Shown one piece after another: positions 28,510 to 39,112 of a stretch of DNA of 39,115 bases. A program made the position numbers and the translations under genes. The DNA comes from an uncultured Anaerolineae bacterium (GTDB taxonomy: Bacteria; Chloroflexota; Anaerolineae; Promineifilales; Promineifilaceae): NCBI GenBank assembly GCA_937949915.1, contig CALECP010000036.1, positions 1 through 39,115 on the forward strand, given 5' to 3'. Position 1 is the first letter of the stretch. The number at the start of each line of letters is the position of its first letter. The notes below the pieces were generated by a model. It saw only the letters and a program-made list of their open reading frames with translations, was not told the origin of the DNA and did not search any database.

Positions 28510-29175
28510 CTAATCCCATTCAATTTCAGGGGGTTCATATGGCTCAATGCCATTCATTAAAGCTAATACGATTAACTGCCCTCTCTGACTCACCCCTAAC
28601 TTGCCTAAGATAGCACTCATATGAACACGTGCTGTCCCCTCGGCTATGCACAAGCTTTGAGCAATAGCTGCATTGCTATGTCCACCAGCAACACGCCGTA
28701 ACACTTCAAATTCGCGGGTGGTGAGTTGTGAAAAAGGGGTCGGCCGATTGATCCATTTGAATACGCGACGGCCGTAGTATATTTCATCGGCACGGACTGC
28801 TCGAATCGCTTCGACCATGTAATCATGACCATCTACTTTAGATAAAAAGCCCGTTGCACCTAGCTTGAGGTAGTGGTCGATAAATTCGCGTCCCCAATAA
28901 CCACTATACATGACGATTTTTGGGCGTGTATTGCTTTTCGATAGCTTTTCAACTGTTTTCGGAGCATCATACTGTTCGCCCGGCATACGAATGTCCAGAA
29001 TTATCACATCTGGTTTCAGAAGCTCAGTCATCTTTACCACATCATCATGGCGTTGTACCGCTTCTATGACATTGAGGTCAGGCTTGTCTGCTAGCCACAT
29101 TCTCATTCCGGCGAGGACGGCCGGCTCGTCGTCTGCTAATAATACTCGTGTTGGTTGTATGGTTAAATTGCTCAT
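28510..29175 (-). CDS. NarL-family response regulator
   Basis: VLLADDEPAVLAGMRMWL..DVIILDIRMPG..IVMYSGY; LuxR HTH LTTREFEVLRRVAGGHSNAAIAQSLCIAEGTARVHMSAILGKLGVSQRGQLIV. Start set at ATG 29175 (MSNLTIQ), 8 nt after the HK stop. Confidence 0.93.
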   Translation of the reverse strand: MSNLTIQPTRVLLADDEPAVLAGMRMWLADKPDLNVIEAVQRHDDVVKMTELLKPDVIILDIRMPGEQYDAPKTVEKLSKSNTRPKIVMYSGYWGREFIDHYLKLGATGFLSKVDGHDYMVEAIRAVRADEIYYGRRVFKWINRPTPFSQLTTREFEVLRRVAGGHSNAAIAQSLCIAEGTARVHMSAILGKLGVSQRGQLIVLALMNGIEPYEPPEIEWD

Positions 29176-29183
29176 TGTTACTT

Positions 29184-31577
29184 TTACACACCTTTGCCTG
29201 TTCCAAGAGGCGTTATGATGCAAATACGAGTTCCTTCGCCGATAGTCGATTGAATTGTGCAATCGCCCCCGACAAGACGCGCCATCATTCGCATAATTCT
29301 TAATCCGAAATGTTTATTTCTTTGGGCTGAATCGACATCAAATCCAATCCCATTATCCTGTATCTTCAGTACCATCTGATCGCTGGAAATGATAATGTGA
29401 ATCATCGCATTTGTCGCTTGCGAATGCTTGACAACATTGCCCAAGGCTACCTGCATAATGCGAAATAGATTGAGCGTCGTTTCTTCATCCAAATGATTGT
29501 CTGTACCATCAAAGCGCATTCGTATCCTGAGGTTGGGCGTTTGGGCCGCGTATTGACGTGCAAGCGCACTGAGCGCGATCCTGAAACCAAGCGTTAATTC
29601 TGGCGGATAATTTTTATCGATTAACTGTCGTGCAATATCATCAATCCCTTCGAGTGATTCTTTGATCTGATTGATCTCAGTTGGTAGTTGCTCTTTGCTT
29701 GCGATCTTCAATATATCAAGGTCGCTGACCAGCAGAGCAAGGCGAGATAAAACGCTATTATGTAAATCGCTGGCGATCTCGCGCCGTACATCAGCGTCTT
29801 GTTTCAGTAGTTCTTCATTCAAATACATCACTTGTTGATTTGTTTCGATAATTTGTAGGATCAGGCTAGCGAGGTGAGAAACAGTGCCAAGCGCGATCAG
29901 ATCGCGGTTGTCAAAGATACTGCCTCCCTGTTTATGGCCGAGTATGATCAGCCCCAGTATTTCCTGCTCGTGGTGTAATGGGATGAGTAGTTTGTACTGG
30001 TCGGGCGAGAGCAATTGCTTTTCTTGCTCCGACATTTTGTGCGATAACGCGGATAAAAGCGCACTGTTGTCCTTTGGCTTTACTTGTGCCATCTGTCGAA
30101 AATAGGAAACGAGTGCGCCATTGTAATCAAGGGCTATGGTATCGTCATCAAGTCCGGTGGGTTGTACATAACGTAGGTTCGATTGTGAATCGAGTAGCAG
30201 GATTGCAGTTGAGGTGGCTTGGATCACCCCTTCTACGATTTCGGTGATCATACTGGCTAGCTTTTGTGGTGTGTATTCGGCCGTATGTGCCATTGTCTCG
30301 AACACATGACGCATTACCTCTGGCGACGTGTACCCGCCGCCGTAGAAGAACCGCTCGATCCACTTTTGCAGCCACTCTCTCAATGGATAAAATAATACTA
30401 GGACCACACCAACCAACAGCAAATCGATCTCAAAACTATCTACTTCACGCAACTGCCATTTGACTGTCAAATAAAGTGCGCCCAGCACGTTGCAGAGCAA
30501 AAAGATAGTCGCATTGCGTGTGATGAAGCGTTCCCATTTGACTAGATCGTATGAATGCATAACAAAAAAGTAGGTGAGTGGAATGAGGGCAAGGAATGAA
30601 TAAGTGATATGTTTTGCTATAAGTGGCTGACCGGTGATCAACTCTGGGATAAACGAAAAACAGATTGATGGCAAAATACCTATTGCTGCGCCCAGCAAAA
30701 ATTGGGCAGTTTGCTTTTGTTGTAATAATGTGTTTTTGTTGCGATATAGATGCACCAGCAATACGATAGGCACACATAGCCAAAAGATATATTGATAAGA
30801 AATAACTTCTGAAAATAGATTGATGAGAGAAGAAAGAAGTGGGTTACTCAAATCGTTGATACTGTCTTGATAGGTGACAAATATCCCTGATAGAAAATAA
30901 AACACGGTGCCTAGTGTTGCGCTAATATAGGCACTGAGTCGCAGATATTTCCACTTTCTCCCTTGAATTTTCTGGGGAAGATAATAATGAAAATGCAAAA
31001 TAACTGGACCTATCCAGAAAATAACAAGTGAATACAAATTACTGGTGAGAACACTCCAGCGCATAATCCGTAATGATGTTCCAAAGCCAAGCAACATGAT
31101 CGCAAGCAATTGGCAAAAATAAAAAAATGTGCGAGAGGGTTGCTCGATGCCTTTGAACAGCACAAACAATCCAATACCTGATGTCATGGCGGCTGCAATG
31201 ATTGGTAGCAACGACACCAACAACCATCCCAATGTTGGTTGCTGTGGTGATACGTGTATTATGCTCGCTAAACCATTCGGATTCTGTAAACCGATGGAAA
31301 CTGTTGGTAATGGGGTGCCTTCTTTATCCAAATAGATCAAATGTGGCGTAAAACGAATTTGTTCGTAAGGTATGTCATTAATTTCTATAATTGTCTTCCC
31401 CTTGATGATACTACTCTGTTCGTGTATCGCTTGACTGACAGTATGAATCACGCCACTCCCCTGATTCCAACGCAGCCCGACATGTGCATGGTTGATAATC
31501 TCAATCACACCGATTACGCACATGGCTATCACCAACAACGCATATAGATGTAGAACCGTTGCCCGAATTAAAGACAT
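29184..31577 (-). CDS. Multi-TM sensor histidine kinase (HisKA_3/NarX-like with GAF-like region)
   Basis: Several TM helices; VRREIASDLHNSVLSRLALLVSDLD H-box; IQDNGIGFD, HFGLRIMRMMARLVGGDCTIQSTIGEGTRI. Confidence 0.93.
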   Translation of the reverse strand: MSLIRATVLHLYALLVIAMCVIGVIEIINHAHVGLRWNQGSGVIHTVSQAIHEQSSIIKGKTIIEINDIPYEQIRFTPHLIYLDKEGTPLPTVSIGLQNPNGLASIIHVSPQQPTLGWLLVSLLPIIAAAMTSGIGLFVLFKGIEQPSRTFFYFCQLLAIMLLGFGTSLRIMRWSVLTSNLYSLVIFWIGPVILHFHYYLPQKIQGRKWKYLRLSAYISATLGTVFYFLSGIFVTYQDSINDLSNPLLSSLINLFSEVISYQYIFWLCVPIVLLVHLYRNKNTLLQQKQTAQFLLGAAIGILPSICFSFIPELITGQPLIAKHITYSFLALIPLTYFFVMHSYDLVKWERFITRNATIFLLCNVLGALYLTVKWQLREVDSFEIDLLLVGVVLVLFYPLREWLQKWIERFFYGGGYTSPEVMRHVFETMAHTAEYTPQKLASMITEIVEGVIQATSTAILLLDSQSNLRYVQPTGLDDDTIALDYNGALVSYFRQMAQVKPKDNSALLSALSHKMSEQEKQLLSPDQYKLLIPLHHEQEILGLIILGHKQGGSIFDNRDLIALGTVSHLASLILQIIETNQQVMYLNEELLKQDADVRREIASDLHNSVLSRLALLVSDLDILKIASKEQLPTEINQIKESLEGIDDIARQLIDKNYPPELTLGFRIALSALARQYAAQTPNLRIRMRFDGTDNHLDEETTLNLFRIMQVALGNVVKHSQATNAMIHIIISSDQMVLKIQDNGIGFDVDSAQRNKHFGLRIMRMMARLVGGDCTIQSTIGEGTRICIITPLGTGKGV

Positions 31578-31600
31578 TTTGCTCCAGTTATATCAAACAA

Positions 31601-31630
31601 TACCCAAAGGCTGGAATCAACCTTTGGGTA
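31601..31630 (-). promoter_or_regulatory. Stem-loop between the small secreted peptide gene and the histidine kinase
   Basis: TACCCAAAGG-N10-CCTTTGGGTA, 10-bp perfect arms; followed on the minus strand by TTGTTTG. Confidence 0.6.
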
Positions 31631-31664
31631 AGTTTCAATTGTGATTTGTGCTCAAATCATTCCA

Positions 31665-31880
31665 TTATTGATTATAGACGAGTGCATCATCAAAATGACC
31701 GCATAGTGGAGGCCAGAACCAGCACCATGAGACAGGAAATGCGTGAGTTGTGTTGGTCGAGGTATCGGTTTCTGCTGCATAGAGGTTACTTGTTGGCATA
31801 AGCACCGTCAGCGTAAGTGTCAAAATCAAAACGGCGACCATAACTTTTGTTTTTAGCGGACTTAGGATATTAGTGTTCAT
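31665..31880 (-). CDS. Small secreted 2-Cys aromatic peptide (candidate signal or effector peptide)
   Basis: 71 aa: MNTNILSPLKTKVMVAVLILTLTLTVLMPTSNLYAAETDTSTNTTHAFPVSWCWFWPPLCGHFDDALVYNQ; Sec-like signal; GGAG 6 nt before ATG 31880. Confidence 0.6.
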   Translation of the reverse strand: MNTNILSPLKTKVMVAVLILTLTLTVLMPTSNLYAAETDTSTNTTHAFPVSWCWFWPPLCGHFDDALVYNQ

Positions 31881-32030
31881 AGTTGTCTCCATTCCTGTTC
31901 TTAATAGATTATATTTTTTGTGCGTATTGTGTATGTTGTTGGAAAACCCATCACAACAAACTTTATGTATATAGTGTATGGGGGCAGGCTAACTCCTACA
32001 ACACGCATCCGTTATAAGTTATCTATAACA

Positions 32031-32161
32031 TTTAGCATAGATTATCTTCTGCAACTTATGTTTTTGTCTCCAATTTACTCTTATTTATGCGCTTTAGCAT
32101 AGTTTTTGAGGTGGGGGTGCATAGATCACTTCTGGTAATTGTGATGCTTTCACCATGCTAA
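32031..32161. promoter_or_regulatory. Repeated TTTAGCATAG / TTAGCAT motifs in the divergent intergenic region
   Basis: TTTAGCATAG at 32031-32040 and 32093-32102; inverted ATGCTAA at 32155-32161. Confidence 0.45.
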
Positions 32162-32237
32162 TTTGCTGAAAACAATAAGTGATTTGGTAGATGTGATAGA
32201 GGGGTGTAACCGACATAATCTGCAGTGTGTTCGGTAA

Positions 32238-32825
32238 ATGACACAAATAAATCAAACGAGAAACCTTATGAGTGATTCATCAACCATTTTCCGCCAAGAG
32301 GCTGTTGATCGATACAATGAACGTCGAGAACAGCAGGTGCTACCAAGATATATTCGCCCAAAAATGTTTTTGTTTTTTTGGGTATTGGTTGGATTACTTG
32401 TCACAGGATTTTGTGCTGCTTGGTTTGCCCAATTACCTATTTATGTAACTGGACAGGGAATTGTGGTAGCGGCCGATGGCGAGATAGACATGCTTATCAT
32501 CACTCCCGCAAACACAGAACAGTTGACGGCCGATTATACGGTGTGGTTTACAGGCATTGACGCAGAACGACATGCCAGCGAGATACTAACAGTGGAAACG
32601 GCCGTCCAAAGCCCTTATACCATTCAATCTGCATATCCAAACTATGTTTCGATACTCTCCACAATGGTACAGCAACCTAGTCGGGTTGCCACCGCCACAT
32701 TCGATGATGCCAGCCTTGATGCCCTGTATCTCGGTAGCCAGCATCAGGTTGAGATCGAAGTTGGATCACAACGGTTGATCGCTATGGTGCCATTTATCGG
32801 CCGATTCGTTGGAGGACAATCATGA
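32238..32825 (+). CDS. Truncated HlyD-like membrane fusion protein
   Basis: IFRQEAVDRYNERREQQVLPRYIRPKMFLFFWVLVGLLVTGFCAAWFAQLPIYVTGQGIVV; ATGA overlap with the ABC gene; alternative start at 32268 (MSDSSTIFRQE). Confidence 0.8.
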   Translation: MTQINQTRNLMSDSSTIFRQEAVDRYNERREQQVLPRYIRPKMFLFFWVLVGLLVTGFCAAWFAQLPIYVTGQGIVVAADGEIDMLIITPANTEQLTADYTVWFTGIDAERHASEILTVETAVQSPYTIQSAYPNYVSILSTMVQQPSRVATATFDDASLDALYLGSQHQVEIEVGSQRLIAMVPFIGRFVGGQS

Positions 32826-35113
32826 GCGAGACACCTATCCCTACCACTACATCGACTAACAACATGATCTCACGGTTCATCGGACGGATATGGCTACTCT
32901 TGAGCGTGGTATTTAGCCGGATAAAGCAACGTTTTACCCGTCGTTCTGTTCCTGTCCTTCTTCAGTTAAATGCGGTTGAATGTGGGGCGGCTTGCTTGGC
33001 GATGATTCTCAACTACTACGGACACAAAATTTCAGTCGCTGAGTGTAATCGTATCAGCGGAGTCGGCCGTGATGGACTGACCGCCCGCACGATTGTTGAA
33101 TCGGCTCGTAACTTTGGTTTGCGGACAAAAGCGTACAAAGTGCCGAATCTTGAAGTATTTCAGCATGTCGCCTTGCCCGCCATTATCCACTGGGACTTCA
33201 ATCACTTTGTCATCGTTGAAAAGTGGTCGCCTACCAAAGTTGTTATCGTTGACCCAGCTATTGGGCGACGTATTCTTACGCAAGCCGAATTTGATGAAGG
33301 CTTTACCGGTGTAGCGATGACGTTGGAGCCGGGTGCTCATTTTGAACGTCGCAACACGGCCGAAAAACCGCTCTGGCAACTTTATCTCAAAACCATACTT
33401 GGCGCGCGTACCGTTAAAACCACACTGCTTCAAGTGATGCTCACCTCTCTGTTCCTGCAAGCTATTGGTCTCGTATTTCCGTTTGTCACACAGATATTGG
33501 TAGATCGCATTCTGCCCAACCATCTTGATAACCTAATGCTGATTTTGGGCGCAGGGTTGCTTATCTTGGTTGTCGCACAAATGCTTGTCATCTATCTGCG
33601 GTCAGTTCTGCTCATCTATCTTCGCACCCGTCTCGATGCCCAACAAATGCTCGGTTTCTTTGAGCATTTGCTCAGCCTCCCTCTTGGCTTCTTCCAAGAA
33701 CGGAGCAGTGGTGACCTGATCATGCGCCTCAATAGTAACCGCTTTATCCGAGAGACATTAACTAATCAAACACTATCGACTGTGTTGGACGGTACATTTG
33801 TCATCGGATATTTGTTTATTCTCTGGTGGCAGAGCCCCCTATACGGTGTAATTGCGCTCGCGCTTGGCACAGTACAGATCGTTATCCTGCTCGTCAGTAC
33901 AAAGATGGTGCGTGAAGTCACCCAGCGCAACCTTATCACCCAGTCAGAATCGCAATCATATCTCTATGAGGCACTCGCTGGTATTACCACCATCAAAGCG
34001 GCCGGGACAGAACCACGTGTGTTCGATTTCTGGTCAAATCTATTTTTCAAAGGGCTGAATGTTTCGGCGGAGAAAGACCACCTCAACACAATCGTCAGTA
34101 CGCTCTTATCAACGATTCGCGCCTTCTCTCCCTTCATACTGCTCTGGGTCGGTGCCATCCAAGTGCTAGATGGCACGATGACATTGGGCATGATGCTCGC
34201 CCTCAATGCCCTTGCTACCGCCTTCCTTCTTCCATTGACTTCATTGCTAAATAATGGTCAGCAACTCCAGCATCTTGGCGCAGAGCTTGACCGTCTGGGC
34301 GACATCTTAAAGGCTGCTCCTGAACAACAGATTCAAGATGTGCAGACTGCGCCACAGTTAAGCGGTGCGATAGCCTTAAACAATGTCTCGTTTGGCTACG
34401 ACGAGCATTCCAATCCAATTTTACAAGATATTTCCGTCGATATTAAAGCAGGGCAGAAAGTGGCGATTGTCGGCCGTACCGGTGCAGGCAAAACAACGCT
34501 CGGTATGCTCTTGCTCGGTATGTATCGTCCCCGTGCTGGCTCAATCGCTTTCGATGACATGCCGCTCGAAACGCTGAACTATCAATCAGTGCGCCAGCAA
34601 TTCGGGGTCGTCACACAAGATTCATTTCTATTCGACACCTCAATTTTAGAAAATATTCGCTACAACAACCCTACATTGGGCATGAAAGATACGGTGATGG
34701 CGGCCTATGCGGCCGCCATTCACAACGACATCATGCAGATGCCAATGGGGTATGAAACCCGCGTCGCCGAACGGGGCGCAGGGTTGTCAGGTGGACAACG
34801 ACAAAGGCTCTCACTCGCACGTGCATTGGCAACAAAACCAGCCATCATGCTGCTTGATGAAGCGACCAGCCACCTCGACGAATTGACCGAACAGCATGTC
34901 GAACGCAGCTTAGACCAACTGGGATGTACACGCATTGTGATCGCCCATCGCCTAAGCACCGTTCGCAACGCTGACCTGATTCTGGTGCTTGATAACGGCC
35001 GTATCGTAGAACAAGGCACACATGAAGCACTACTCAACCAACACGGGTATTACGCCTCGCTCATTCAACCGGCTGAGGCGACAACCACCGCGCACCAAGA
35101 CGTTGGCGTGTGA
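32822..35113 (+). CDS. Peptidase-containing ABC exporter (C39 + TM + NBD)
   Basis: C39: LQLNAVECGAACLAMILNYYG, HWDFNHFVIVE, VVIVDPAIGRR; Walker A GRTGAGKTT; LSGGQRQRLSLARAL; IMLLDEATSHLDE. Confidence 0.97.
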   Translation: MSETPIPTTTSTNNMISRFIGRIWLLLSVVFSRIKQRFTRRSVPVLLQLNAVECGAACLAMILNYYGHKISVAECNRISGVGRDGLTARTIVESARNFGLRTKAYKVPNLEVFQHVALPAIIHWDFNHFVIVEKWSPTKVVIVDPAIGRRILTQAEFDEGFTGVAMTLEPGAHFERRNTAEKPLWQLYLKTILGARTVKTTLLQVMLTSLFLQAIGLVFPFVTQILVDRILPNHLDNLMLILGAGLLILVVAQMLVIYLRSVLLIYLRTRLDAQQMLGFFEHLLSLPLGFFQERSSGDLIMRLNSNRFIRETLTNQTLSTVLDGTFVIGYLFILWWQSPLYGVIALALGTVQIVILLVSTKMVREVTQRNLITQSESQSYLYEALAGITTIKAAGTEPRVFDFWSNLFFKGLNVSAEKDHLNTIVSTLLSTIRAFSPFILLWVGAIQVLDGTMTLGMMLALNALATAFLLPLTSLLNNGQQLQHLGAELDRLGDILKAAPEQQIQDVQTAPQLSGAIALNNVSFGYDEHSNPILQDISVDIKAGQKVAIVGRTGAGKTTLGMLLLGMYRPRAGSIAFDDMPLETLNYQSVRQQFGVVTQDSFLFDTSILENIRYNNPTLGMKDTVMAAYAAAIHNDIMQMPMGYETRVAERGAGLSGGQRQRLSLARALATKPAIMLLDEATSHLDELTEQHVERSLDQLGCTRIVIAHRLSTVRNADLILVLDNGRIVEQGTHEALLNQHGYYASLIQPAEATTTAHQDVGV

Positions 35114-35211
35114 CGCAACAAGACAGGGAAACGGCTACTTGACTGCAGCAGATAACCGCAACCCAAACAAAACTAACATTAGTAAGCATGTCTTGCTAAG
35201 GAGAAATAGAA
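35081..35211 (+). promoter_or_regulatory. Duplicated 5' region, copy A, upstream of precursor 1
   Basis: Shares ACCAAGACGTTGG, ACAGGGA, CTGCAG, AAAACTAAC and CTAAGGAGAA in the same order with 38826-38950; overlaps the 3' end of the ABC gene. Confidence 0.75.
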
Positions 35212-35349
35212 ATGCAAACTAAACGTAAATCAATGAAGAAGTTCGCGATCCGTGAAGTAGAAACAGTAAAGACAACAGCGGCTCTGTACAGTAGAGCTTG
35301 TGGGATGCCTGATTTCCCATGGGGTCCACCTCCATTCGTCCGCTTCTAA
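35212..35349 (+). CDS. Candidate exported peptide precursor 1
   Basis: 45 aa: MQTKRKSMKKFAIREVETVKTTAALYSRACGMPDFPWGPPPFVRF; SD AAGGAG; directly downstream of the C39 exporter; near-identical to precursor 2 with only synonymous changes in the shared leader. Not in the ORF track. Confidence 0.88.
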   Translation: MQTKRKSMKKFAIREVETVKTTAALYSRACGMPDFPWGPPPFVRF

Positions 35350-35367
35350 TAGTTCGCTCAAGCTTAT

Positions 35368-35412
35368 GAAATTCAACGCAGTTTGCCATATAGCATTATG
35401 TGGATGAATTTC
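35368..35412. repeat. Inverted repeat between precursor genes (GAAATTCA...TGAATTTC)
   Basis: 8-bp perfect arms, 29-nt loop. Confidence 0.4.
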
Positions 35413-35429
35413 AACCAATGGAGACAAAA

Positions 35430-35555
35430 ATGAAAACTAAACGTAAATCAATGAAGAAATTCGCAATCCGCGAAGTAGAGACAGTAAAGACAACAGCGGC
35501 TCTGTACAGTAGAGCTTGTGGTGATTTCCCATGGGATCTAATTCGGTATTACTGA
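35430..35555 (+). CDS. Candidate exported peptide precursor 2
   Basis: 41 aa: MKTKRKSMKKFAIREVETVKTTAALYSRACGDFPWDLIRYY; SD GGAG; paralogue of precursor 1. Not in the ORF track. Confidence 0.88.
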   Translation: MKTKRKSMKKFAIREVETVKTTAALYSRACGDFPWDLIRYY

Positions 35556-35584
35556 TCCAGCATTGGAGATAAACCATTAAGACA

Positions 35585-35638
35585 CCTTTTCTGCTGGATT
35601 CTTCTACTAGATAGATGTAGAAGATTCAGCAGAGAAGG
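35585..35638 (+). terminator. Long stem-loop between precursor 2 and the M50 gene (attenuator / mRNA stabiliser candidate)
   Basis: CCTTTTCTGCTGGATTCTTCTAC-TAGATAGAT-GTAGAAGATTCAGCAGAGAAGG; long near-perfect stem, no clear T-tract. Confidence 0.65.
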
Positions 35639-35649
35639 GGGGATTTCTT

Positions 35650-36858
35650 ATGATGACTTACTCAGAAGACTCAACAGTAACGTTCCATCCATATACAAAA
35701 CAAGTGGATGAAGAAACAGTCGTTATCGGCCGACCCGAACAAGCTACATTCCTCGCTTTGCCTATTGACGCGGTTGAATTGCTTGAAAAACTGGCAGAGG
35801 GATCAACCCTCAAAGAAAGCGAAGTATGGTACGAGTCAATTTATGATGAAACCCCAGATATTGTAGATTTGTTACTTGTATTGGAAGAAAAAGGATTTAT
35901 CGTCACCTCCAACATACAGAAAGGTGATGCAGATACAACAGTAAGTCAAGTGAAGTTCCACTTCGAGAATCTACCAAAGCGGTTATTGAATGGGCTTTGG
36001 AGTAAGCAAACAATGCTACTTTATACTTGTGTAATCCTGTTAGGATGTCTTACGCTTGCTTTATCCCCATCTCTGTGGCCTTCGTATGATGTATTGATCT
36101 TCGATCACTCATTAGATGTAAACATTCTTAAATTACTCATTCTAACTTGGAGTTTAGTATTCGTTCATGAAATGGCACACCTAACGGCAGCACAGTTTAT
36201 GGGTGTCAACTCCCGACTCAGCCTTGGGAATAGAATGTGGATCATCGTCGGTGAAACAGATATGAGTGGAATCTGGACAATACCAAAGAAGAAGCGATAT
36301 CTGCCATTACTCGCTGGCATGATCTCCGATCTGGTCGGACTTTCTTCCATTTTTATCATTCTATTCATTGCTGAATCGACGACTTTCTCACTATCTAATT
36401 CTATCGAGACATGGTTGCAGATTACTATCTGGACGTACTTCTTTCAGATTTCTTGGCAATGCTATTTTTTCCTCCGGACAGATTTGTACTACATCATTGC
36501 CAACTTTTTCCAATGCAAGAATTTAATGAACGATACCCAAACATGGATGAAAAACCAATTGAAACGTTTTTTCAGAAACACAAATATCGTTGATCAAAGT
36601 GTAATTCCAAACCGCGAAATGAAGGTCATTCGTTATTACGCAGGGTTTTTGCTGCTCGGCCGTCTTGCCGCATTTAGCATCCTTTTCTTCATCATTCTGC
36701 CAATCGCTTGGACGTATTTGCAAATGATTGTTGAGATAGTGCGCGGCACAATGCCAAACACACTGGTCAGCCCCCTCATAATCGTCATCTTTTTTGTCAG
36801 CAATGGCTTAGGTTTATTACTTTGGATTAACAACTTAATAAAAACACGGAGAGCATAA
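35650..36858 (+). CDS. PqqD/RRE-like domain fused to M50-type zinc metalloprotease, multi-TM
   Basis: N-terminus FLALPIDAVELLEKLAEGSTLKE...DIVDLLLVLEEKGFIV is PqqD-like; FVHEMAHLTAAQFMG is HExxH in a TM helix; several further TM helices. Confidence 0.8.
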   Translation: MMTYSEDSTVTFHPYTKQVDEETVVIGRPEQATFLALPIDAVELLEKLAEGSTLKESEVWYESIYDETPDIVDLLLVLEEKGFIVTSNIQKGDADTTVSQVKFHFENLPKRLLNGLWSKQTMLLYTCVILLGCLTLALSPSLWPSYDVLIFDHSLDVNILKLLILTWSLVFVHEMAHLTAAQFMGVNSRLSLGNRMWIIVGETDMSGIWTIPKKKRYLPLLAGMISDLVGLSSIFIILFIAESTTFSLSNSIETWLQITIWTYFFQISWQCYFFLRTDLYYIIANFFQCKNLMNDTQTWMKNQLKRFFRNTNIVDQSVIPNREMKVIRYYAGFLLLGRLAAFSILFFIILPIAWTYLQMIVEIVRGTMPNTLVSPLIIVIFFVSNGLGLLLWINNLIKTRRA

Positions 36859-36860
36859 AC

Positions 36861-38813
36861 ATGTTATTAAACACACAAACAAACCGTATGAGCGAAGTAA
36901 TTATTTTCAAGTCATCAAGTGGCAGCGAACGTGAACAATATCTATCATCCCAACTGCTTATTACGCCCGAAAGCATTGGTATGGAAACAAGATTCGTTTC
37001 ATGTGACATGCAGGAACACGGCATCTGGTCAGGCGTAAGAGAGTTGATTCTTCCGATTGTACCTCTGATTCATGAAGAAAGACCAGAATTGTTGACGAAA
37101 CATTGCTATGAATTGACACTCGTGTGCCCCGAGTTTCGCTCCATTATCCCTAATATCAATCCGACTTTAACAGAGAGTTCATTAGGGGATGAAAAAGTCC
37201 GTTCATATCCAGCGGATCGTGCCTATCGCACCGCACATGGGATTATCGACTTATTAACAACCTGGTCTGAACATAAACAAATAGGTTCATGGCTTATTGT
37301 TTGCAACTATTTCGACCGTGCCAGCCACTTAGCACAGTATTTCTTTCAGCATCTAATGAAACGTCGTGGAGAGCAACTACACATCAAGCTGGTAGTTGTT
37401 GTCAATCCCGCTTTTGACACAACACAGTTACAGTTCTCTGAACAATGCAACCTGACAACGGTGTTTCAACAGTTTGAATATGAGAAGCCTATAGTAACGA
37501 GTTCAAAAGAAGCTCGTGAGTTGGCACAAAGCTTAGAAGAAGAAATGCATAAACATGCAGGGACATGGCTTATGTCTTTGCCCAAACTAGTTCGATACTG
37601 GGAGCAGACCGACGATTTAGAACGTGCTGTCAAATACCAGATTGCTTTATTCAACTCATTTAATCATCGTGGTTACTATCAAGATGGACTGGTTTATGGA
37701 GAGCGAGCATTTGAGAATTTGTCTGAATTAGGGCAGGAGGGTCAAGAACAGTATGTGAAAGTACTCTCTGGGCTTGTTACCAGCTATATGGCGCTGGGGA
37801 AGATGGAGAATGCCCATGCTATTTTGAGCCAAGAGTTGGCAAAAGTGGGTGATGATCCTGTTAAAGTACATCTCTTTTATTTTATGAGTATGATGTATGT
37901 GCGCTTTTTGCCATCTGATCAGCAAGATTTTGCATTAGCAGAAGCATATATTGAAAAGGCACAACACCTCCTAGCCAATATCGAAATGCCATCCGAAACA
38001 GAGCGGCATTTCACACATTCATTTCTCCTCAATGGATTGGCATTCATTCGTGTCAGACAACGCAGAGCCGCAGATGCACTTACGATCTGCGAGCATTGCA
38101 TTGATCATCTGAACAAACATTTGTCATTAGATCAGCATCGCCTCCATCGCTCTGTTTTGATTTATAACACCGCCCAAGTGTATTTTTACATTGGTGAACA
38201 TAATATAGCTCTCGACTTCTATAGTCGGGCAATGGAGATGGATCCATTCTACTCTGAATACTATAACGAAAGGGGCAATACATATTTGCGAATTGGCAAA
38301 TTGGAAGAAGCCATTGCTGATTATCTACGAGCGATTGAACTTAGCCCTCCTTATCCTGAAGTGTTCCTCAACTTGGGGCAATGTTACAAACAGTTGGGGG
38401 AGATGACTCTCGCGGCTGATGCGTACTCACGTGCATTAGACCTCGATTCGGGACTTTTATTGGCGTATGTCGGCCGAGCGCAAGCATACGATGCTCTTGA
38501 TCAACTACAAAATGTTGTTAGTGATTATTCACAAGCGATCAAACTATCACCAGATGATATTTCATTACGCTCAAATCGTGGGTCCGCTCTATACGAATTA
38601 GACTTTTTGGAGCAAGCTTTGGCAGATTTTGATTACGCGATTTCTCACGACCCAAATCAGGCCGATTTGTATTACAACCGAGCGATTGTATTACAAGAAT
38701 TAGGTAATGTTGCTGCTGCAAACGAAGATCAAGGGATTTTTGATGAGCTGATGCAACCTAACCAACAAGATACACATCTTAACCAATATGGGCAATACGC
38801 CACCCCAATTTAA
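36861..38813 (+). CDS. TPR protein with uncharacterised N-terminal domain
   Basis: C-terminal TPRs (YYNERGNTYLRIGKLEEAIADYLRAIELSPPYPEVFLNLGQCYKQLGEMTLAADAYSRALDLDS); N-terminal about 200 aa with no recognised motif. Confidence 0.85.
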   Translation: MLLNTQTNRMSEVIIFKSSSGSEREQYLSSQLLITPESIGMETRFVSCDMQEHGIWSGVRELILPIVPLIHEERPELLTKHCYELTLVCPEFRSIIPNINPTLTESSLGDEKVRSYPADRAYRTAHGIIDLLTTWSEHKQIGSWLIVCNYFDRASHLAQYFFQHLMKRRGEQLHIKLVVVVNPAFDTTQLQFSEQCNLTTVFQQFEYEKPIVTSSKEARELAQSLEEEMHKHAGTWLMSLPKLVRYWEQTDDLERAVKYQIALFNSFNHRGYYQDGLVYGERAFENLSELGQEGQEQYVKVLSGLVTSYMALGKMENAHAILSQELAKVGDDPVKVHLFYFMSMMYVRFLPSDQQDFALAEAYIEKAQHLLANIEMPSETERHFTHSFLLNGLAFIRVRQRRAADALTICEHCIDHLNKHLSLDQHRLHRSVLIYNTAQVYFYIGEHNIALDFYSRAMEMDPFYSEYYNERGNTYLRIGKLEEAIADYLRAIELSPPYPEVFLNLGQCYKQLGEMTLAADAYSRALDLDSGLLLAYVGRAQAYDALDQLQNVVSDYSQAIKLSPDDISLRSNRGSALYELDFLEQALADFDYAISHDPNQADLYYNRAIVLQELGNVAAANEDQGIFDELMQPNQQDTHLNQYGQYATPI

Positions 38814-38825
38814 TTGGGGACGGCG
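38798..38825 (+). promoter_or_regulatory. Stem-loop over the TPR stop codon (CGCC-A-CCCCAATT-T-AATTGGGG-A-C-GGCG)
   Basis: 8-bp inner and 4-bp outer stems; no T-tract. Confidence 0.55.
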
Positions 38826-38950
38826 ATAACCACAGCATACCAAGACGTTGGTATGCAACCAATCGAAACAGGGATATGACCATCTAACTGCAGTATATGA
38901 CCGTATCCTAAAGAAAACTAACCTAACTATTCTACTAAGGAGAATACAAA
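38826..38950 (+). promoter_or_regulatory. Duplicated 5' region, copy B, upstream of precursor 3
   Basis: Aligns with 35081-35211; contains a perfect hairpin GCATACCAA-GACG-TTGGTATGC at 38835-38856. Confidence 0.75.
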
Positions 38951-39112
38951 ATGTCGAAGAACAAAACAACCAAAATGGAAGTAACAAATGCACTGGTCGA
39001 ACTAGATGCTATTCAACTTGAAGCAGTTAATGGCAGCAAGGATCGATGGACAATCAAAGGCGGCTGGTCACAATCTAGCGGCTTTTCAGTAGGCGTGTCA
39101 TTTAGCTTCTAA
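38951..39112 (+). CDS. Candidate exported peptide precursor 3 with double-glycine-type leader
   Basis: 53 aa: MSKNKTTKMEVTNALVELDAIQLEAVNGS|KDRWTIKGGWSQSSGFSVGVSFSF; LDAIQLEAVNGS fits the C39 leader consensus with GS at -2/-1; SD AAGGAG. Not in the ORF track. Confidence 0.85.
   Translation: MSKNKTTKMEVTNALVELDAIQLEAVNGSKDRWTIKGGWSQSSGFSVGVSFSF

Follow-up and report, generated by a model that had tools for sequence, protein, structure and literature searches.

The window considered here, the whole of a 39,115-nucleotide contig from an uncultured Anaerolineae bacterium of the Chloroflexota (GenBank assembly GCA_937949915.1, contig CALECP010000036.1), carries towards its end a peptide locus whose heart is, with reasonable confidence, a stand-alone cassette similar to those producing ribosomally synthesized and post-translationally modified peptides (RiPPs). 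This cassette comprises one or more precursor genes, a gene for an M50 metalloprotease fused to a RiPP recognition element (RRE, PqqD-like), and a gene for a tetratricopeptide repeat (TPR) protein. The reading follows from a fixed gene set and order, a conserved leader, variable cores with Tyr and Cys, the catalytic residues, the RRE fold and the missing P-loop of the TPR protein, that is, from sequences and predicted structures. The label "RiPP-like" is used because a bare proteolytic peptide is, strictly, not a RiPP. The locus as a whole is composed of two separable modules: an exporter module, with a truncated membrane-fusion protein (mini-HlyD), a C39 peptidase-containing ABC exporter (C39-ABC) and precursor 3, and the cassette itself, with precursors 1 and 2, the RRE-M50 protease and the TPR protein. 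The first-pass annotation had described all these genes, together with a two-component system and a secreted two-Cys peptide, as parts of one undescribed peptide-export locus. All the open reading frames (ORFs) that it named are intact where it placed them, and its C39, ABC, HATPase, response regulator and TPR domains are confirmed by Pfam and NCBIfam. Moreover, its central proposal, an undescribed peptide system with the PqqD-M50 fusion as key factor and the TPR protein as its partner, appears to be right, as suggested by strong co-occurrence in other genomes.

An M50 alignment, run once against 84,980 species, retrieved 75 M50 loci, and the cassette was found in seven phyla: Cyanobacteria, Chloroflexota, Actinomycetota, Myxococcota (Corallococcus), Pseudomonadota (Tahibacter and a Lysobacteraceae metagenome-assembled genome, MAG), Acidobacteriota (a Blastocatellia MAG) and Bacillota (Cohnella and a MAG). 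Two archaeal MAGs have the M50 gene only. Nearly all 75 loci yield precursors with the leader profile and most have a TPR neighbour. When the count is restricted to the 69 loci with at least 2.2 kb downstream of the M50 gene, a TPR gene is present in 65 and a precursor in 65/65 of those, while three loci have neither and one has a leader-like peptide without a TPR gene (Fisher p 8e-5 for the association of TPR gene and precursor). This last locus, from a Gloeobacterales MAG (L050:9786-16221), is an exception to the M50/TPR pairing rule: the RRE-M50 gene is found there with a leader-like peptide devoid of Tyr and two C39-ABC-like genes. Clustering of the neighbours within +/-10 kb of the 75 loci showed that only the M50 and TPR genes recur at a fixed place, in 36 and 35 host labels, respectively, the next best being a mixed group of ABC proteins with 8. 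No exporter, kinase or tailoring enzyme recurs in this way, which agrees with the earlier remark that no classical tailoring enzyme is visible.

The precursor profile used alone provides an unbiased test of linkage within one phylum (400 Chloroflexota genomes). It matches seven of them, namely the window's own, four of Herpetosiphon and two of Ktedonobacter, always at the cassette, and these are the same genomes that have M50 and TPR genes. The M50 protein itself has a match in 17/400; the best ones come from Herpetosiphon (four genomes) and Ktedonobacter (two), and there the gene immediately behind it encodes a TPR homologue. In the Chloroflexota genomes with an M50 match and no TPR gene, the profile found no precursor. 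In six genomes searched as a whole, every strong precursor match lies at the cassette. Since few genomes carry it (2/292 in the Cyanobacteria, one of them being the centre of that search), the cassette is rare, patchy and probably mobile. In the window family it was probably not vertically inherited, because 59 relatives contain just one distant M50 besides the window's own. Furthermore, the M50 tree mixes phyla, and transfer between distant bacteria probably took place. The distances among M50 and among TPR proteins are strongly correlated (r=0.957, 0/999 permutations), a value to which shared descent contributes; even so, the cassette seems to move between genomes in one piece.

Precursors 1 and 2 are paralogues with the same leader protein sequence (MKKFAIREVETVKTTAALYSRACG) and different cores, and they are the only strong profile matches in their own genome. 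The leader, MKK[IFL]x[IV]R[KE]x[EG][TS][VL][KR][LT]T[AS]A, conserved over 15-19 residues, is common to 121 distinct precursors from the seven phyla, with an information content of ~3-4 bits at most positions against ~1 bit in the tail/core columns, and its Thr15 is invariant. After leader position 15 there are 10-29 residues (median 17), and both Tyr and Cys are present in 120/121 cores, Tyr-x3-Cys being the commonest spacing (74/121), often with a hydrophobic tail next. For the leader codons, comparison of paralogues in four arrays gave pN/pS values of 0.12, 0.22, 0.23 and 0.30, so the leader is under purifying selection; these low ratios, along with strong whole-genome matches only at the cassette, argue that the precursors are not chance ORFs. 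Their number varies from 1 to 12 distinct precursors per locus (65 loci with a TPR gene). Herpetosiphon has arrays of 9-13 tiny genes upstream of the M50 gene, matching precursors 1 and 2 of the window, and a single locus of H. aurantiacus DSM 785 (CP000875.1) has at least 12 precursors. A search of the precursors against NCBIfam gave chance-level matches only. For precursor 2, a start at 35400 was discarded in favour of the ATG at 35430, with GGAG upstream. The intergenic hairpin that follows the precursor genes is unusually stable (z -5.6, 0/200 shuffles as stable), and hairpins with z<-3 were detected in the precursor-protease gap of ~11/24 relatives tested; it probably sets the precursor/enzyme ratio.

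The composition of the cores allows other functions to be considered. Two or more Cys, up to seven, are present in 36/121 cores (for instance CYCNCSC, CWICSSCW and GACCCGC), as would be expected if the peptides bound metal through their thiols and the cassette were a stress or metal-buffering device; however, 85/121 cores have a single Cys, many with Pro/Gly-rich or hydrophobic tails after it, and no metal transporter or regulator is recurrent nearby, so that such a function is very unlikely. An AIP-like (autoinducing peptide) thiolactone was also rejected: the Tyr-x3-Cys-hydrophobic tail is a resemblance of motif only, and no ATP-dependent activator is present.

The structure of the protease of the window was predicted with AF2 (AlphaFold2; pLDDT 89.7). 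In its N-terminal fold it matches TbiB1 and TfuB1, two lasso-peptide RREs whose structures were solved together with their leaders (Foldseek prob 1.0, TM-score by target 0.72-0.75; E-values not significant, the domain being a small part of the query), and RRE-bearing McbB, TigE and a sactipeptide maturase are matched as well. Independently, TbiB1 was also retrieved when a profile was searched against the sequences of the PDB (5v1u, E 0.0098). Pfam sees no PqqD/RRE domain in the window protein and detects it in 17/45 relatives; similarly, the M50 match of the window protein lies below the cut-off (Pfam/NCBIfam), with PF02163 found in 26/45 relatives. The catalytic H173-E174-x-x-H177 and D278, corresponding to the HExxH motif and the distal Asp by which M50 (site-2) intramembrane proteases are recognised, are invariant in 45/45 sequences. 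Thus, the PqqD-M50 fusion read from the bare sequence is borne out by relatives, profile and predicted fold, and the suggested profile check of the N-terminus, together with the predicted structure, supports its assignment as an RRE domain.

No curated family reaches its cut-off for the protease, and the nearest model, NF041824 (daptide RRE-site-2-protease, daptide_HExxH), scores 13.1 bits for the window protein, far below the cut-off of 300. Daptides (MpaA/B/C/D/M) were discovered by way of fusions between an RRE and a site-2 protease (PMC10036551), and the architecture of the protease is consequently not new. In both systems the RRE is N-terminally fused to an intramembrane M50 protease and several short leader-bearing precursors lie alongside. 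Nevertheless, daptides have the leader motif ELExMEAP and an invariant C-terminal Thr, both absent from the cassette, where the leader is MKKxxIRKxETVKTT and 0/121 precursors end in Thr; their clusters contain mpaB/C/D/M-type genes, none of which is recurrent within 10 kb of the 75 loci; and the constant TPR partner belongs to the cassette alone of the two. Other peptide classes with M50 proteases have been described. In epipeptides (EpeX/YydF), the EpeP/YydH protease is thought to release and export the peptide (PMC10885120), which is a point of likeness, but these systems include a radical SAM epimerase and an EpeAB-like transporter, neither recurrent at the cassette, whose protease moreover carries a fused RRE (NF058609 gives matches in only 5/45, all sub-threshold); no meaningful NCBIfam match to a YydF-type precursor was obtained among the cassette precursors. 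Pearlins use the M50 proteases TglG and TmoG (PMC10885120), which act on a short peptide close to its C-terminus, as the cassette protease would, but they receive one tRNA-added residue from a PEARL ligase, while the C-termini of the cassette peptides are genome-encoded and variable and no PEARL-type gene is recurrent. That the cassette belongs to one of these classes (daptide, epipeptide or pearlin), with its tailoring enzymes encoded elsewhere, would suit the daptide-like fusion and the weak NF041824 matches in 11/45 proteases; given the low score, the missing daptide motifs and the lack of any oxidative decarboxylase, aminotransferase, methyltransferase, radical SAM or PEARL family recurrent nearby, it is the least probable explanation considered. 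In TMcins, TmcP (DUF3267, S2P clan) removes the leader with the help of the partner/escort TmcE (PMC13252029). The cassette likewise joins an S2P-clan protease to a dedicated partner; it differs in that its precursors have no obvious transmembrane helix, the partner is a soluble TPR protein, and no ABC exporter or oxidoreductase is recurrent. A description of the RRE-M50/TPR cassette was not found in the searched literature or in family libraries, although RRE-Finder-type surveys may hold the proteins undescribed, nor were the leader strings found in that literature, which left out most subscription journals.

The TPR protein of the window (AF2 pLDDT 92.4) consists of an alpha/beta core, residues 1-205, followed by a TPR superhelix. 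The suggested profile check of its N-terminus gave a weak AAA_16 similarity in 23/45 members; a Walker A motif ([AG]xxxxGK[ST]) is seen in none of the 45, a difference from STAND/AAA_16 NTPases. The TPR protein has no helix-turn-helix (HTH) or other output domain. TIGR04510 (putative peptide modification system cyclase) is matched below threshold by 18/45 members, probably because of the TPR repeats. In Rhizonema (L042:11258-13283) the TPR gene is split in two ORFs, possibly in a decaying cassette. A role in anti-phage defence was discarded, as PADLOC gave nothing beyond weak TPR matches.

With regard to mechanism, the RRE would bind the leader and the membrane-embedded M50 domain would cut near the TTAA/TSAA junction, releasing or exporting a peptide of ~8-20 residues. 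These two steps, binding and cleavage taken jointly, are probable, given that RRE and protease form one polypeptide and that, apart from the proteins, nothing but the leader is conserved. The TPR protein would be the dedicated cytosolic partner of the protease, either a substrate chaperone or a peptide receptor/immunity factor.

A receptor role leads to a more specific version of the cassette reading, namely peptide signalling, with the M50 protease releasing a short signal and the TPR protein acting as cytosolic receptor, as in RRNPP systems without the DNA-binding domain. In enterococci, the M50 protease Eep releases the pheromones, and Eep-pheromone/RRNPP signalling combines such a protease with a small peptide and a TPR receptor, the same three elements found in the cassette. 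Tiny and highly variable cores on one leader, the frequent Tyr-x3-Cys arrangement, the superhelix with strict M50/TPR pairing, and the many filamentous or developmental hosts (Nostocales, Herpetosiphon, Ktedonobacter, Corallococcus, actinomycetes) fit this version. On the other hand, where RRNPP receptors have the HTH the TPR protein carries a degenerate NTPase-like domain, with no other output domain, the protease is RRE-fused and the precursors have no signal peptide, no fixed regulator lies nearby, and arrays of up to 13 precursors for one TPR protein are a misfit for a pair of one signal and one receptor. Signalling is therefore to be regarded as a tentative proposal. Equally speculative is the broadest version, a new pan-phylum RiPP-like class in which the RRE-guided intramembrane protease and the P-loop-less NTPase-like/TPR protein would be the whole maturation machine, producing a collection of short peptides with Tyr-x3-Cys, possibly Cys-cyclised, which multicellular bacteria would use as intercellular signals or weapons.

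Several points weigh against the cassette reading. The contig runs no further than 39115, three bases past the stop codon of precursor 3; the scan alignment is rich in TPR-linked M50 members, and the TPR fraction that it gives is biased upward; the 65/65 count rests on ORF calls made in this analysis; the membrane part of the protease matches SpoIVFB weakly (Foldseek prob 0.44); and a core-modifying enzyme may be encoded elsewhere in the genomes.

The exporter module is separate from the cassette. The best NCBIfam match of the C39-ABC is TIGR03796 (667 bits, below the 853 cut-off); like NHLP/C39 exporters of that family it is accompanied by a double-glycine leader, that of precursor 3, and it differs from them in the sub-cut-off score and the truncated HlyD adaptor. 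Homologues of mini-HlyD are present in 25/400 Chloroflexota genomes, mostly of one family including Ktedonobacter, and the C39-ABC adjoins them in 11/12 places examined, the exception (L118) being near a contig end. Several such pairs per genome are found in L117-L128, mostly of the Ktedonobacter family, and the pair recurs in Ktedonobacteria as a module in its own right. In 4/12 places an explicit GG/GA-leader peptide lies upstream; a His-run peptide (L118:2730-2987) is among these. Because it recurs alone with such peptides, mini-HlyD/C39 is an independent export module with precursor 3 as its likely substrate. Double-glycine leaders processed by C39 peptidases have hydrophobic residues at -12, -7 and -4 and Gly at -2; the leader of precursor 3 (ELDAIQLEAVNGS) shows L-12, L-7, V-4, G-2 and S-1, and the exporter most likely processes this peptide. 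The three precursors had been taken as one set, which holds for 1 and 2, with the cassette leader, and not for precursor 3, excluded from their family by its unrelated leader and the sole one of C39 type.

An integrated locus, where C39-ABC and mini-HlyD export all three precursors and the PqqD-M50 and TPR proteins are accessory processing factors, would account for the contiguity of the genes, with precursors 1 and 2 between C39 and M50, and for the upstream element common to precursors 1 and 3. It is nonetheless improbable. Of the C39-ABC, PqqD-M50 and TPR genes whose co-occurrence had been proposed as a check, only the last two are conserved together; C39 and HlyD are absent from nearly all other cassettes, mini-HlyD and C39 occur elsewhere without M50, and precursors 1 and 2 contain no GG/GA/GS site in an L-12/L-7/V-4 pattern. 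The shared upstream regions of ~120 nt have 72% identity (local score 62, against a maximum of 30 in 1000 shuffles), exist in only two copies in their genome and fold into a hairpin that includes a compensatory change; Rfam gave no credible match. Being homologous, genome-unique and supported by that change, they suggest that the exporter module and the cassette may be co-regulated.

The features of the locus are collected in Table 1. The neighbourhood analysis rules out C39, HlyD and the histidine kinase/response regulator (HK-RR) pair as members of the cassette, the latter not being recurrent beside it, so this part of the first-pass annotation was not upheld; mini-HlyD and C39 recur as a module of their own. 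For the secreted two-Cys peptide no homologue was found in 59 related genomes, and its association with the cassette is not supported. It lies on the same strand as HK-RR, in an arrangement like that of a peptide-pheromone/two-component operon, and may belong to that system; there is also a likeness between its start region and the one of precursor 2.

Table 1. Features of the peptide locus in the window
Feature	Coordinates	Strand	Basis or remark
Response regulator, NarL-type	28510..29262	(-)	Pfam/NCBIfam; neighbour only
Sensor histidine kinase, UhpB/NarX-like C-terminus, GAF	29184..31577	(-)	Pfam/NCBIfam; neighbour only
Secreted two-Cys peptide, Sec-like N-terminus	31665..31892	(-)	ORF; directly upstream of HK-RR
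Mini-HlyD, truncated membrane-fusion protein	32238..32825	(+)	Below NCBIfam cut-offs
C39 peptidase-containing ABC exporter	32822..35113	(+)	Pfam C39/ABC_membrane/ABC_tran
~120-nt upstream element of precursor 1	35085..35211	(+)	Homologous to precursor 3 element
Precursor 1, MQTKRKS-MKKFAIREVETVKTTAALYSRACG-MPDFPWGPPPFVRF	35212..35349	(+)	ORF behind AAGGAG ribosome-binding site
Precursor 2, MKTKRKS-MKKFAIREVETVKTTAALYSRACG-DFPWDLIRYY	35430..35555	(+)	ORF behind GGAG; precursor 1 paralogue
Stable intergenic hairpin, ~24 bp, no T-tail	35585..35638	(+)	Between precursors and protease gene
RRE (PqqD-like, residues ~10-88)-M50 site-2-type intramembrane metalloprotease	35650..36858	(+)	Predicted fold, profile matches
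TPR protein, P-loop-less AAA_16/STAND-like N-terminal domain (~1-205) and TPR superhelix	36861..38813	(+)	Pfam TPR; AF2
~120-nt upstream element of precursor 3, hairpin ACCAA-GACG-TTGGT	38830..38950	(+)	No Rfam family
Precursor 3, double-glycine-type leader ELDAIQLEAVNGS, core KDRWTIKGGWSQSSGFSVGVSFSF	38951..39112	(+)	Leader sequence; presumed C39 substrate

A sister architecture was observed in three cyanobacteria (L080:6572-9264, L081:8333-11091, L100:8477-11224), where the RRE-M50 gene comes after those for a small precursor and a ThiF/E1-like protein (ThiF E <1e-45), and no TPR protein is found. The leader is related, QIQIRKLEKLETTA followed by SRGGPR/HRSNDR, with QIQIRKLERLETTKGRDGGCC in L100. 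A ThiF and M50 pair is also present in a Chloroflexota genome (L031:8811-11365), PqqD matching the ThiF protein in this case. By its gene content, the sister architecture is possibly a second uncharacterised peptide class, one using an adenylating enzyme.

The general traits of RiPPs, an RRE and a short precursor, constant in its leader and variable in its core, encoded beside a processing protein, are thus gathered in a minimal and widespread peptide system with a recognisable leader, which genome mining based on tailoring enzymes would overlook. Cultured hosts include Herpetosiphon aurantiacus DSM 785, Nostoc, Corallococcus, Ktedonobacter and many actinomycetes. The cassette raises the question of whether an RRE can steer an intramembrane protease when no tailoring enzyme is involved, and that of the role which a dedicated degenerate-NTPase/TPR protein has in peptide maturation.

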